A DNA stretch of 5,241 nt from Chloroflexota bacterium (GTDB lineage: Bacteria > Chloroflexota > Anaerolineae > Anaerolineales > Villigracilaceae): contig JAKAMM010000142.1 in NCBI GenBank assembly GCA_021812905.1, forward strand, positions 1 to 5,241, written 5' to 3'. Both the position numbers and the translations under genes were made by a program. This document shows, piece after piece, positions 250-5,026 of this stretch. The notes beneath the pieces were generated by a model, which ran no database searches, was not told the DNA's origin, and saw only the letters and a program-made list of their open reading frames with translations. Numbering within the stretch: the stretch's first letter is position 1; the number at the start of each line of letters is the position of its first letter.

Positions 250-1020
250 ATGTCGGAATTAGTTATTAAGAATCTCCATGTCAGCATTGGGGACAAGGAA
301 ATTCTCAAAGGTCTTGATCTCACAATCAAACAAGGCAAAATTCACGCCATCATGGGGCCGAACGGCACGGGCAAGTCCACCTTGGCCTACACACTGATGG
401 GGCACCCGAATTATACGGTTACCCAAGGCGAAGTTCATTTCAAAGGCAAGAACATTCTTGAGCTGGAACCAGACGAACGTTCCCGCGAGGGAATTTTTCT
501 GGCGTTCCAATATCCGGTTGCTATTCCTGGTGTGACCGTTGCCAACTTTTTACGCACCGCGCTCAATGCCCGTCGTCGCGCCGTCAATCCCGAAGATAAG
601 GGCATGCCCATCCCTGAGTTCCGCAAGATGCTCAAGGAGAAGATGGAATTGCTCAAGATGGATCAGGCGTTCGCTGGTCGCTATTTGAACGATGGATTTT
701 CTGGCGGCGAGAAGAAGCGAGCTGAGATCTTGCAGATGGCCGCCCTCAGACCGGAAATCGCTATTTTGGACGAGACCGATTCAGGTCTGGATATCGATGC
801 GCTGCGCATCGTCGCGGAGGGCGTCAACGCTCTTTCTGGACCCGAACTCGGCGTGCTCGTCATCACGCATTATCAGCGCCTGTTGAATTACATCAAACCG
901 CAGTTCGTCCACATCATGCTCGATGGGCGCATCGTTGAATCTGGCGGCCCTGATCTGGCATTGCATCTCGAAGAGCAGGGCTACGATTGGGTTCGTGAGA
1001 AGTATGAGGAAGTCGCCTAA
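250..1020 (+). CDS. sufC: SufC, Fe-S cluster assembly ATPase
   Basis: This 256-residue cytosolic protein is the ABC-type ATPase of the SUF system; it binds SufB and SufD and drives conformational change in the SufBC2D scaffold during cluster assembly. The sequence shows a complete nucleotide-binding domain: Walker [10 protein letters not shown] at 36-44, Q-loop AFQYP with Q87, signature FSGGEKKR at 150-157, Walker B with ILDE at 172-175, D-loop SGLD at 178-181 and switch histidine H207 in ITHYQR. The stretch from [10 protein letters not shown] to the ITHYQRLL motif, together with a C-terminus GYDWVREKY, is typical of SufC and not of transport ATPases, and no membrane segment is present. The length is usual for the family. 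The start is set by AGGAG at 240-244. It is the first gene of the operon, 82 bases before sufB. Nothing appears missing. Confidence 0.97.
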
Positions 1021-1102: not shown

Positions 1103-3616
1103 ATGACTGAAGATTCCAAGATACTTGATGATATTGGTGAATACAAATACGGTTTCCATGACCGTGATGATAATTATGTTTTCAAATCCCAGCGCGGACT
1201 TTCGCGCGAGGTGGTTGAAAATATTTCGCGCATGAAGAACGAGCCGCAATGGATGCTTGAATTCCGCCTCAAGGCGCTCGAACATTATCTGACTCGCCCC
1301 ATGCCAAATTGGGGACCTGACATCTCGAACCTTGACCTTGACAATATTTTTTATTACGTCAAGCCGACCGAGAAAAGCGAAAAATCTTGGGACGATGTCC
1401 CGGACGATATCAAAAACACGTTCGACAAATTGGGCATCCCCGAAGCCGAGCGGAAATTTTTGGCAGGTGTTGGCGCGCAATACGAATCCGAAATGGTGTA
1501 TCACTCCATTTTGGAACATCTCGAAAAGCAGGGCGTGATCTTCCTTTCCATCGAGGATGGCCTGAAACAATATCCCGATCTGTTCAAGGAATATTTCGGC
1601 ACGGTCATCCCGATCGAAGATAATAAATTTGCCGCGTTGAACTCAGCCGTTTGGTCAGGCGGATCATTCGTCTATGTTCCGAAAGGCGTCAAAGTGGATT
1701 TACCGTTGCAGGCTTACTTCCGTCTCAACACCGCCAACGTCGGACAGTTCGAGCGCACGCTCATTATTGTTGATGAAGGCGCGTCGGTGCATTATGTCGA
1801 GGGTTGCTTCCTGGAAGGCGCGCAAGTCCGTACTCGAAACGGCGAGAAGTCTATTGAGCAAATTAGCATTGGCGACGAGGTGTTGACGCATCAAGGTCGT
1901 TATCGCCGCGTGTATCATACGCAAAAACGTTCATATCATGGCAAGGTGTATAACATCCGCTTTTATGGAGACAGCGGACGTGAGTTAAATATTACCGGCG
2001 AACATCCTTTATTGGTTGTTCGCCGCCAGAAACAAAACGAGCGCAACAAGGAATTTCAATTGACTTGGGCGCGTGCCGACAGCGTCCAGGAAGGCGATTA
2101 TCTGGTTGTGCCAGTGCCTCAACCTGTGATGGAACCTGCCTTCGCTCATAGTGTGACCATTCCTTTGGGGCGTGGCCGCCACGCTCCTGTCGAGCGCGAA
2201 GTCAATCTGCCTTACGAACCAGATTTCTTCCGCCTGCTCGGTTACTATTTTGCGGAAGGTCATGTGGATAACGAGCATTACTTGTCATTGTCTTTCCATG
2301 TTGAGGAGACCGAGTATCTTGCAGACGCTAAATCCCTCATGGAAAGATATTTTGGCAAGTCGCCTATCGAAAATACGCCGCGTCAAAACGGGCAGACCCT
2401 CGTGCTTTCCTCGACTGAAATTGCGCGCACTTTTGCCCGCGAGTTTGGTTCAAATGTTTATGAAAAACATATCCCCGAATGGGTGACCGGCGCTGATCCT
2501 GCCTTGCTCTTAGAATTAATTAATGGCATGTGGCGCGGTGATGGAAGTTACGACCCGAAGAAGAACATGTTCCGATATAACACAGTATCTGCGGATTTAG
2601 CTTACGCTTTCCGTGATGCTTGCTTGCGGCTGGGAGTGGCGGCTTCTGTGAACAAGCAGGAGCGTATCCTGCCTCGCAAGGATATTTATGCGGTCGTGAT
2701 TGCATCGCCGTTCAATCCAAAATTTGGAGAAATTGTCGGCGTGAATGCGCCCGCAGGCGACCTCAGCGGCTCTCCATTTGCCCTCGATGAAAATTTCCTT
2801 TATGTTCCGATCAAGGAAATTGAAGTTGACGAACAGGAAACCGAAGTCTACAACTTCTCTGTGGAAGAAGATGAGTCATATGTCGCGGAAGGCGTAGTCT
2901 CGCATAACTGCACGGCCCCCCAATACACGTCGAACTCATTCCACTCCGGCGTGATTGAGATTATTGTCAAGAAGGGCGCCCGCTCACGTTATTCCACGAT
3001 TCAAAACTGGTCAACCAACGTGTTTAACCTCGTCACACAACGCGCCAAAGTTTTTGCCGACGCCTCGCATGAATGGGTCGATGCCAATCTCGGCTCGAAG
3101 CTGACGATGAAATATCCGTCCTGTTATTTAATGGAACCAGGCGCGCACGGAGAAATGTTGTCGATGGCCTTCGCCGGCCCAGGTCAGACACAGGATGCGG
3201 GCAGCAAGATGATCCATTTTGCACCGAATACCACCAGCAAGATCGTGTCCAAATCCATTAGCAAATCCGGCGGACGCGCCTCCTATCGCGGCATGGTCAA
3301 AGTTTATAAAGGCGCGAAGGGCGTCAAATCCAACGTGGTTTGCGATGCGCTTTTACTCGATCCCAAATCGCGCTCTGATACTTATCCCACCATCGAAATT
3401 GACGAAGACGATGTGACCATTGGTCACGAGGCTTCGGTCAGCAAAGTAGGTGAGGAGCAGCTCTTCTATCTCATGTCGCGCGGCCTCAGCGAAGAAGAAG
3501 CCACCGGCATGGTGGTTGCCGGTTTCATCGAGCCGCTCGTCAAAGAACTGCCGATGGAATATGCTGTCGAAATGAACCGCCTCATCCAACTTCAAATGGA
3601 AGGCTCCATCGGTTAG
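1103..3616 (+). CDS. sufB: SufB, Fe-S cluster scaffold precursor containing an intein
   Basis: The 837-residue product is a SufB precursor: residues 1-234 and 603-837 join into a 469-residue SufB of usual length, and 235-602 is an intein. SufB is the cytosolic scaffold subunit of SufBC2D, accepting sulfur and building the cluster at the SufB-SufD interface. The N-extein shows family motifs such as RGLSREVVENIS (31-42), KNEPQWML (45-52), FKEYFGTVIP (161-170) and AVWSGGSFVYVP (182-193). The C-extein shows CTAP at 603, IQNWS at 633-637, KYPSC at 670-674, the SYRG segment near 727-730, C747 in NVVCDALLL and H775-E776 in GHEASVSKVG. By family alignment from memory, C603, C747 and E776 correspond to E. 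coli Cys254, Cys405 and Glu434; the 29-residue spacing between the last two matches. The start has a GGAG site. The gene ends 69 bases before sufD. Active SufB requires splicing. Confidence 0.96.
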   Translation: MTEDSKILDDIGEYKYGFHDRDDNYVFKSQRGLSREVVENISRMKNEPQWMLEFRLKALEHYLTRPMPNWGPDISNLDLDNIFYYVKPTEKSEKSWDDVPDDIKNTFDKLGIPEAERKFLAGVGAQYESEMVYHSILEHLEKQGVIFLSIEDGLKQYPDLFKEYFGTVIPIEDNKFAALNSAVWSGGSFVYVPKGVKVDLPLQAYFRLNTANVGQFERTLIIVDEGASVHYVEGCFLEGAQVRTRNGEKSIEQISIGDEVLTHQGRYRRVYHTQKRSYHGKVYNIRFYGDSGRELNITGEHPLLVVRRQKQNERNKEFQLTWARADSVQEGDYLVVPVPQPVMEPAFAHSVTIPLGRGRHAPVEREVNLPYEPDFFRLLGYYFAEGHVDNEHYLSLSFHVEETEYLADAKSLMERYFGKSPIENTPRQNGQTLVLSSTEIARTFAREFGSNVYEKHIPEWVTGADPALLLELINGMWRGDGSYDPKKNMFRYNTVSADLAYAFRDACLRLGVAASVNKQERILPRKDIYAVVIASPFNPKFGEIVGVNAPAGDLSGSPFALDENFLYVPIKEIEVDEQETEVYNFSVEEDESYVAEGVVSHNCTAPQYTSNSFHSGVIEIIVKKGARSRYSTIQNWSTNVFNLVTQRAKVFADASHEWVDANLGSKLTMKYPSCYLMEPGAHGEMLSMAFAGPGQTQDAGSKMIHFAPNTTSKIVSKSISKSGGRASYRGMVKVYKGAKGVKSNVVCDALLLDPKSRSDTYPTIEIDEDDVTIGHEASVSKVGEEQLFYLMSRGLSEEEATGMVVAGFIEPLVKELPMEYAVEMNRLIQLQMEGSIG
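1805..2908 (+). other. SufB intein, full length with homing endonuclease
   Basis: This in-frame 368-residue insertion (SufB residues 235-602) excises itself and ligates the SufB halves. Block A begins with the nucleophile Cys1 (CFLEGAQVRT, followed by a SIGDEVLT segment near 255-262). Block B is GRELNITGEHPLLV, giving the TxxH motif T298-H301. The C-terminal blocks are VYNFSVEEDESYVAEG (582-597) and VVSHN (598-602) with penultimate H601 and terminal N602, followed by Cys603 as the +1 nucleophile. All canonical class 1 splicing residues are therefore present. The boundaries are set by these motifs and by restoration of the conserved SufB text VHYVEG-CTAP. The site appears identical to that of the Mycobacterium tuberculosis SufB intein, judged from memory of its extein junction. 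Apart from Cys1, the only intein cysteine is C507. Confidence 0.95.
2222..2707 (+). other. LAGLIDADG homing endonuclease domain within the intein
   Basis: Approximate limits correspond to precursor residues 374-535. The first dodecapeptide-type motif is RLLGYYFAEGHV at 377-388 with acidic E385; the second is LLELINGMWRGDGSY at 469-483 with acidic D480. Between them KHIPEWV (455-461) matches the usual intein block D, and SADLAYAFRDACLRLGVAAS (496-515) matches block H. Monomeric LAGLIDADG enzymes use one acidic residue from each motif to hold the metal ions for double-strand cleavage, and both are present, so the domain looks potentially active. No frameshift or stop interrupts it. Its expected target is the intein-free sufB junction. 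Activity is an inference from motifs only. Confidence 0.88.
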
Positions 3617-3626
3617 CAAGTTATCA

Positions 3627-3676
3627 CGTTTGCATGTTTGAACGTTCCAACCTTTCAACCTGCAAACTTTCAAACG
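3627..3676. repeat. Imperfect inverted repeat in the sufB-sufD spacer
   Basis: Positions 3627-3644 pair with 3659-3676 at 14 of 18 positions, including six consecutive pairs at the base (CGTTTG with CAAACG) and five more (GTTTG with CAAAC), around a 14-base loop. The spacer also shows a near-direct repeat, AACCTTTCAACC (3649-3660) followed by AAACTTTCAAAC (3664-3675), and an 8-base palindrome GAACGTTC (3640-3647). It lies between the sufB stop and the sufD start, and its right arm overlaps the GG of the weak sufD Shine-Dalgarno. No T-run follows, so it is not an obvious terminator. Folding could reduce sufD translation or mark an mRNA processing point. Confidence 0.65.
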
Positions 3677-3685
3677 GATAAATAG

Positions 3686-5026
3686 ATGCAAGAGAAACCA
3701 AAAGTTGTAGTTTCAAGAACTCGACGGGCCGAACCCGCCGCAAAGGATTTTTCATTCACCCAAGCCGACATCCCCGCCTCGAGCGGTGATATCGCTTCTT
3801 ATCGCGCCCGCGCCTGGGACGCGTTCAAACGGCTTGCCCTTCCCTCGATATCCGAGGAAGCCTGGCGCCGTACCGATATTCACAGCCTGCCCGCCGACAA
3901 ATTTACGCTCCCGAAGGATGGCGCGTTCAAGGATTATCCGTCTGTGCCGGAGGATTTGCTCAAGCCTCTCGTGGCCGATGCGCACGGTGGACAAATTGTT
4001 TTGCTCCCCGGTGGTGCAACCGTTGATCTTGATGAAAAGCTCGCTAAAAAAGGTGTAATTTTCACTGACTTAAAAACCGCGCTTGAAAAGCATCCTGAAC
4101 TGGTTGCAAGAATGCTTGGGCAAACCGTCAACGTTGAAGAAGGAAAATTTTCCGCGCTGGCCGGCGCGTTCGCACAAAACGGCGTGGTTTTATATGTTCC
4201 CAAAGGCGTAACGGTTGAAGAACCTTTCCACTCTGTTTTGTGGGGACCGGGTGCAAATCTTGCTTATGTTTCGCATTTGCTTGTTCTTATCGAAGACGAC
4301 GCGTCTGCAACCTACGTTCACGAATCTGCTTCGCCAACTGAAGACAAGATGAATACGATGCACGCTGGTATTGTCGAGATCAAAGTCGGAAATGACGCGA
4401 ATCTTAAATTTGTTGAGTTACAATCCTGGGGCAAACACGTCTGGAACTTTTCGCATGAGCGGATTCGCGTCGAGCGCGGCGGCAATCTCGATTGGATCTT
4501 TGGCGCAGTCGGCTCGCGGCTGACAAAAAATTTCTCCGAACTTGATCTGGCCGGTGAAGGTGCAACGGGACGCATGTCCGGTTTTTATTTCACCGATGGT
4601 ACACAGCATCTCGACCATGACACGCAACAGAATCATCTGGCTCCGCATACCACCAGCGATCTGTTGTTCAAAGGCGCGTTGAAGGGCAGCAGCCGATCTG
4701 TCTGGCAGGGCATGATCTATGTCGCGCCGTCAGCGCAGAAAACGGACGGGTATCAGGCCAACCGCAACCTCGTCCTGAGTGAAGGGGCGCGTGCCGATTC
4801 GATTCCCGGCCTCGAGATCCTTGCGGACGATGTCCGTTGTACGCATGGGGCTACCGTCGGCAAGTTGGAAGCGGAGCCGCTCTTTTATCTGGAAAGCCGC
4901 GGTATTCCCCCCAAGGATGCCGAGCGAATTATGGTCGAGGGATTCTTTGATCCGATCATGCAACGTATTCCGTTTGAGGGCGTGCGCGAAAGATTCCATC
5001 AAGCCATTTTGGAAAAAACTGGATAA
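3686..5026 (+). CDS. sufD: SufD, Fe-S cluster assembly scaffold subunit
   Basis: The 446-residue cytosolic protein is the SufB paralogue that pairs with SufB in SufBC2D and contributes to cluster formation at the shared interface. It has the N-terminal EEAWRRTD motif (57-64), a central beta-helix region, and SufD-type segments QQNHLAPHTTSDLLFKGAL (314-332), QANRNLVLSEGARADSIPGL (357-376, carrying the NLxLSxxA pattern) and CTHGATVGKLEAEPLFYLES (385-404) ending in the RGIP motif. H387 corresponds by alignment from memory to E. coli SufD His360, a residue reported as essential. An in-frame TAG directly before the ATG at 3686 rules out an upstream start. The Shine-Dalgarno is weak (GGA at 3676-3678), so translation may be partly coupled to sufB or lower than that of its neighbours. 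The length is slightly above the E. coli protein, with a basic N-terminal tail. There is no intein here. Confidence 0.95.
   Translation: MQEKPKVVVSRTRRAEPAAKDFSFTQADIPASSGDIASYRARAWDAFKRLALPSISEEAWRRTDIHSLPADKFTLPKDGAFKDYPSVPEDLLKPLVADAHGGQIVLLPGGATVDLDEKLAKKGVIFTDLKTALEKHPELVARMLGQTVNVEEGKFSALAGAFAQNGVVLYVPKGVTVEEPFHSVLWGPGANLAYVSHLLVLIEDDASATYVHESASPTEDKMNTMHAGIVEIKVGNDANLKFVELQSWGKHVWNFSHERIRVERGGNLDWIFGAVGSRLTKNFSELDLAGEGATGRMSGFYFTDGTQHLDHDTQQNHLAPHTTSDLLFKGALKGSSRSVWQGMIYVAPSAQKTDGYQANRNLVLSEGARADSIPGLEILADDVRCTHGATVGKLEAEPLFYLESRGIPPKDAERIMVEGFFDPIMQRIPFEGVRERFHQAILEKTG

Follow-up and report, generated by a model that had tools for sequence, protein, structure and literature searches.

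The sufB locus and its insert

The 5,241-nucleotide stretch analysed here, called the window throughout, comes from contig JAKAMM010000142.1 of a Chloroflexota bacterium and carries the genes sufC, sufB and sufD in that order, each on the plus strand. Its sufB encodes a SufB precursor into which 368 residues are inserted in frame, between SVHYVEG on one side and CTAPQYT on the other, and this insert is an intein that most likely excises itself from SufB after translation. The original prediction had placed an intein at 1805 to 2908; its position, length and frame were right, as were the splicing residues it named (C235, T298-H301, H601, N602 and C603) and the VHYVEG to CTAP join that it expected in the spliced protein. 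In the features listed below, the residue counts refer to the 120 relatives of the intein listed among its database matches, on which residues were mapped without conditioning on those residues.

1103..3616, plus strand: sufB open reading frame, 837-residue precursor, stop codon within the coordinates; TIGR01980, E 7.2e-211
1103..1804, plus strand: N-extein of SufB, 234 residues, C-terminal HYVEG
1805..2908, plus strand: intein, 368 residues, Cys1 to Asn368 (precursor residues 235-602)
1805..1807, plus strand: Cys1 (C235), first nucleophile; Cys in 120/120
1994..2005, plus strand: block B TxxH, T64-G-E-H67 (TGEH, precursor T298-H301); T64 and H67 each in 120/120
2234..2260, plus strand: first LAGLIDADG motif, LLGYYFAEG, acid E151; Glu in 117/120, Lys in 2, gap in 1
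2465..2482, plus strand: KHIPEW with K221, which we take to be block D-like; K221 in 120/120
2516..2545, plus strand: second LAGLIDADG motif, LINGMWRGDG, acid D246; Asp in 119/120
2846..2908, plus strand: C-terminal splicing region VYNFSVEEDESYVAEGVVSHN with final H367-N368 (H601, N602); TIGR01443 above cut-off; both residues in 120/120
2909..2911, plus strand: +1 Cys (C603), equivalent of Escherichia coli SufB Cys254 by alignment to 5awf; Cys in 119/120, Trp in 1
2909..3613, plus strand: C-extein of SufB, 235 residues, N-terminal CTAP; C747 aligns with E. coli SufB Cys405

Removal of the insert joins HYVEG to CTAP and leaves a continuous, conserved SufB of 469 residues, and in 93 of 93 SufB rows that are empty at this point the two sides abut with a gap of 0. 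Profile searches of precursor residues 235-602, which the original prediction had proposed as a check, returned Intein_splicing (E 5.9e-15), LAGLIDADG_3 (PF14528; E 6.5e-12, in two stretches) and two Hint models, all above the Pfam cut-off, together with the NCBIfam model intein_Cterm (E 7.3e-6, likewise above cut-off). The predicted structure of the insert is confident and reveals a Hint splicing domain, the fold of a class-1 intein, enclosing a LAGLIDADG homing endonuclease in which both motifs retain their catalytic acids, E151 and D246. The insert lies directly before the residue equivalent to Cys254, the cysteine through which sulfur enters E. coli SufB (reviewed in PMC6006206). We read it as a class-1 intein with an intact LAGLIDADG endonuclease, splicing and mobile, seated in SufB before the sulfur-entry cysteine, and put the probability of this reading at about 0.88.

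Because of these residues and this fold, we infer splicing by the four-step class-1 route. The 837-residue precursor would be translated as one chain; Cys1 would then attack the carbonyl of the preceding Gly in an N-S shift aided by the TxxH histidine, the +1 Cys would receive the acyl group, Asn368 would cyclise with the assistance of His367, and an S-N shift would join the exteins to give the 469-residue SufB and a free intein of 368 residues. Until then the persulfide-acceptor cysteine would be held in the splice junction, and for that reason unspliced SufB would not take sulfur. The endonuclease would cut intein-free sufB alleles at the conserved site and thereby spread the intein, with lineages repeatedly gaining and losing it.

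Relatives, insertion sites and reduced forms

With the insert as query, 367 proteins were matched, and all 120 of those listed have SufB domains, with intein identities of 60-86%. Those with names are mainly Anaerolineales, Anaerolineae, Anaerolineaceae or Chloroflexi, plus single entries for Thermoflexales and Ktedonobacteraceae, and one Anaerolineales entry is already called 'intein-containing' by NCBI. The rarity implied by the original prediction did not hold up, and the notion of a rare find was rejected on these counts; the intein is a further example of a kind already known. At +1, P0065 alone among the listed relatives has Trp instead of Cys, either through an error in sequencing or because the allele is dead. 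Nor did any phage or plasmid record carry a close intein: 83 phage and 5 plasmid records matched, all below 60% identity, and the rows inspected (12 of the 83 and all 5 of the 5) had 19-44% identity and lay in other genes or unannotated places. A plasmid or phage was rejected on this basis as carrier of the window's intein.

Proteins were cut by a motif, successfully in 229 of 241 cases (119 of 121 from the window's lineage, window included, and 110 of 120 from the second lineage described below). The motif required Cys1, Asn and His-5, and these columns are thus conserved by construction; of the 12 rows that it dropped, both from the window's lineage have His-5 and several from the second lineage are without it.

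Among 121 rows, the window included, SufB is interrupted at three points, after extein residue 128/129, 234/235 (that of the window) and 296/297. The first and second points are both occupied in 17 rows and the second and third in 19 (one coordinate blurred); the pieces overlapped in this mapping, and 10 of the 121 rows have a blurred site coordinate. One row alone, P0072 (1426 residues), has inserts at all three points, and P0045 has the first two filled and breaks off in an apparent third insert.

A survey of 298 genomes of the Anaerolineae found the intein in 12, always in SufB; the class was that of G001, the genome of L001, a metagenome-assembled genome picked for having the intein and itself counted among the 298. 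Ten of the 12 are full-length matches (at least 61% identity), one is a mini-intein and one is half-deleted. A SufB match above the curated cut-off was present in 212 of the 298 genomes, a count in which sufB genes split by an intein may score lower. The mini-intein (L098, 718-2802 in reverse-complement coordinates) is a natural form of 199 residues in which a short linker replaces the endonuclease, and it is 80-89% identical to the window's intein across the splicing parts. The half-deleted intein, in L099, has about 248 residues.

At least 7 of the 298 genomes (L105, L106, L108, L110, L113, L115 and L117) have this SufB residue occupied by an intein of a second lineage, 358-359 residues long and 25-27% identical to the window's intein. 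As a query it gave 638 matches, and the names among the 120 listed include Fervidibacter, Armatimonadetes, Bipolaricaulota, Omnitrophica and Chloroflexi. It shares with the window's intein the insertion point and a +1 Cys, present in the 110 motif-cut rows (the motif itself having required Cys1 and Asn), and differs in its low identity; its members are 355-360 residues long. A contig labelled Aenigmatarchaeota (L010) also has a SufB intein at this residue, 44% identical to the window's; its 1.2-Mb genome, G006, gave 8 intein-profile matches, some of which are two pieces of one intein. The new detail is the presence in Anaerolineae of two divergent intein lineages at one SufB residue, together with the three SufB sites and the natural mini-intein.

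Mobility and its alternatives

Occupancy by the window's lineage is patchy. In a tree built from 117 SufB extein rows, for which the query was cut at the insertion sites (17 changes in all states), the 17 rows of this lineage give 15 changes, at least 10 of them forced by well supported branches; with shuffled labels the mean was 16.1 changes, and a count no higher than the observed one came up in 100 of 500 shuffles. Among the 17 occupied rows are the distant L010 and a contig that, judged by its length, is counted twice (L007/L092); L019 is without a state, and 30 rows of the tree were taken from the top SufB profile matches, a choice biased towards uninterrupted genes. Taken as a whole, the label 'empty' was clustered, with 1 of 500 shuffles reaching so low a count, and only the window-lineage label was near random. 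A careful tree of 33 rows, hand-picked from the 117, gave 11 changes, at least 7 of them forced, with 446 of 500 shuffles as low. The window's SufB clusters with the empty L011 (95%), L012, L014 and L018 and with the occupied L001 and L089; the SufB sequences of L018 and L089 are 98.3% identical, and their occupancy differs.

Over 110 of the 119 rows, distances in one half of the extein correlate with those in the other at 0.85 (Spearman), and those of the extein with the Hint part or the endonuclease at 0.52-0.63. Of the 5 nearest neighbours, 2.45 are shared between the extein halves, 2.0 between the intein parts and 1.55-1.74 between extein and intein parts. Individual pairs are discordant both ways: P0109 and P0094 are 79% identical in the intein versus 63% in the extein, P0082 and P0011 64% versus 94%. 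Pairs whose inteins are more alike than their exteins are hard to explain by faster change of the intein. In our interpretation the intein is old but has stayed mobile, and has been gained or lost repeatedly.

Several results weigh against this interpretation or against the intein assignment on which it builds. The NCBIfam model intein_Nterm falls slightly under its cut-off on the insert (21.4 versus 24.5 bits). The Hint part and the endonuclease, though parts of one intein, correlate at only 0.61, so that the low correlation between extein and intein is in itself no proof of transfer and may reflect noise and faster change. Beside the insertion point, sliding comparisons over 24 loci (of which L006 and L093 are one contig) and near occupied/empty pairs show no co-conversion tract. 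In near pairs the synonymous sites of the intein are at least as diverged as those of the extein, both being near saturation, and therefore no recent transfer into the window is shown; recent homing into the window was rejected on the strength of the missing tract and these sites. Finally, the trees cannot tell gain from loss, and any direction assigned to the changes is provisional.

Some of these observations lend weight to an intein that splices but is now inherited only vertically, its endonuclease unused for homing or serving the fold and its patchiness the product of losses. The missing tract, the synonymous divergence, the internal correlation that is no better than that with the extein, and the natural deletion forms L098 and L099 would all suit it. 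Against this stand the endonuclease acids kept in 117-119 of the 120 listed relatives, the forced changes on the extein tree, which would require many losses, the pairs closer in intein than in extein despite the generally faster change of the intein, and the fewer neighbours shared across extein and intein than within either. We consider purely vertical inheritance unlikely, while the best placed of the alternatives.

Splicing might instead serve as a regulatory switch, in which oxidation or the status of sulfur or iron times SufB maturation, an argument made because both catalytic cysteines flank the sulfur-entry residue. The alignment of the +1 Cys with Cys254 suits this proposal, as does the Mycobacterium tuberculosis SufB intein, which, according to a review (PMC8529194), is oxidation sensitive through a disulfide between Cys1 and Cys+1 and which, by landmarks, appears to have the same insertion point. 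The presence of the window's intein is, however, near random on both extein trees, unlike that of an established trait, and it occurs in few genomes, the 12 of 298 set against 212 with SufB. His-38, which with His-5 assists N-cleavage in M. tuberculosis (PMC8891592), is replaced by Lys in the window; His stands there in 17 of 119 window-lineage rows (window included) and in 31 of 97 empty SufB loci. Occurrence so close to random fits a parasite-like element better than a regulatory role, and we regard the switch as improbable. A more specific and distinctly speculative form, which we think very unlikely, is that in Anaerolineae the intein gates iron-sulfur assembly after translation: the +1 nucleophile is the sulfur-receiving cysteine, and therefore its persulfidation or oxidation would block splicing and make the maturation of SufB depend on the state of sulfur or redox. 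Were the gate real, the two divergent lineages at one residue would reflect selection for it in addition to a conserved target. A broken, non-splicing insertion in an inactive SufB replaced by another copy or system is scarcely credible, since, although the window alone was read and a second sufB copy elsewhere in the genome is possible, the open reading frame is single and intact, every splicing residue is present, and the ratio of nonsynonymous to synonymous change is low in both intein parts and in the extein where measurable.

The Chloroflexota family is large and patchy, with a 98%-identical occupied/empty pair of SufB sequences and a natural mini-intein, and it offers good material, outside pathogens, on regulated versus neutral splicing at the sulfur-entry cysteine.

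Neighbouring genes and known systems

Both genes that adjoin sufB are whole frames:

250..1020, plus strand: sufC, ATPase; TIGR01978, E 1.7e-109
3686..5026, plus strand: sufD; TIGR01981, E 1.2e-78, above cut-off

Together with the TIGR01980 match and the sulfur-entry and acceptor cysteines (C603 and C747), they place this SufB in a SUF system. The five nearest rows on the SufB tree are Chloroflexota or from the same class, which supports an Anaerolineales-like Chloroflexota sufCBD cluster and bears out the original prediction of a Chloroflexota SUF operon. That its neighbours are intein-free also stands: neither sufC nor sufD has an intein or Hint match in Pfam, and NCBIfam gave no intein model for sufD (for sufC, the best 25 of 195 families were in view).

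Upstream of sufC lies a promoter- or operator-like block, ATACTAGAAAAATATSATAAATATTGAC with TGCTATAAT, at 145-204 and 148-175 of the window. Positions 148-175 overlap a -35 box at 171, and an extended -10 ends at 199. The block is almost invariant, with 38 invariant columns in an alignment of 13 genomes (its loci taken from those whose DNA match extended upstream), and a search that allowed at most 3 mismatches located it in 9 of 11 genomes, the reversed control pattern giving 0. A second copy lies at 1501-1527 in both L157 and L158, adjoining a gene for a SufR-like regulator. In L158 this gene matches TIGR02702 (E 1e-22) at 80.9 bits versus a cut-off of 178.8 and is followed by a SUF-associated gene; in L157 the likeness is one of sequence resemblance. 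The block is possibly a SufR operator of Anaerolineae. Short inverted repeats occur in the gaps between sufC and sufB (1033-1080), where 1033-1044 and 1069-1080 form a perfect 12-nt pair, and between sufB and sufD (3608-3679).

Titles and abstract openings of the open-licence literature yielded no Chloroflexota SufB intein and no coincidence with Cys254; the SufB inteins found there, as far as those texts go, are mycobacterial, plus one archaeon. The intein of M. tuberculosis, as described in PMC8891592, follows Gly252 and leaves a C-extein of 235 residues, and the window's insertion point appears to be the same by landmarks (Gly-1, Cys+1, His-5 and the 235-residue C-extein). The two inteins also have in common the block B His67, the His-Asn end and the endonuclease, and they differ in length (359 versus 368 residues) and at His-38. 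By fold, the window's intein matches TliVMA and PI-PkoII (7qss and 2cw7) over the whole length, Hint and LAGLIDADG parts alike, with 19-22% identity over aligned residues and other host proteins. The public SufB relatives belong to the same intein family and are interrupted at the same SufB residue; about one third of them are interrupted by inteins at one or two further points in SufB, whereas the window has one. Three aspects deserve mention: the group of bacteria that hosts the intein, its position at the sulfur-entry cysteine, and the use of that residue by a second lineage.
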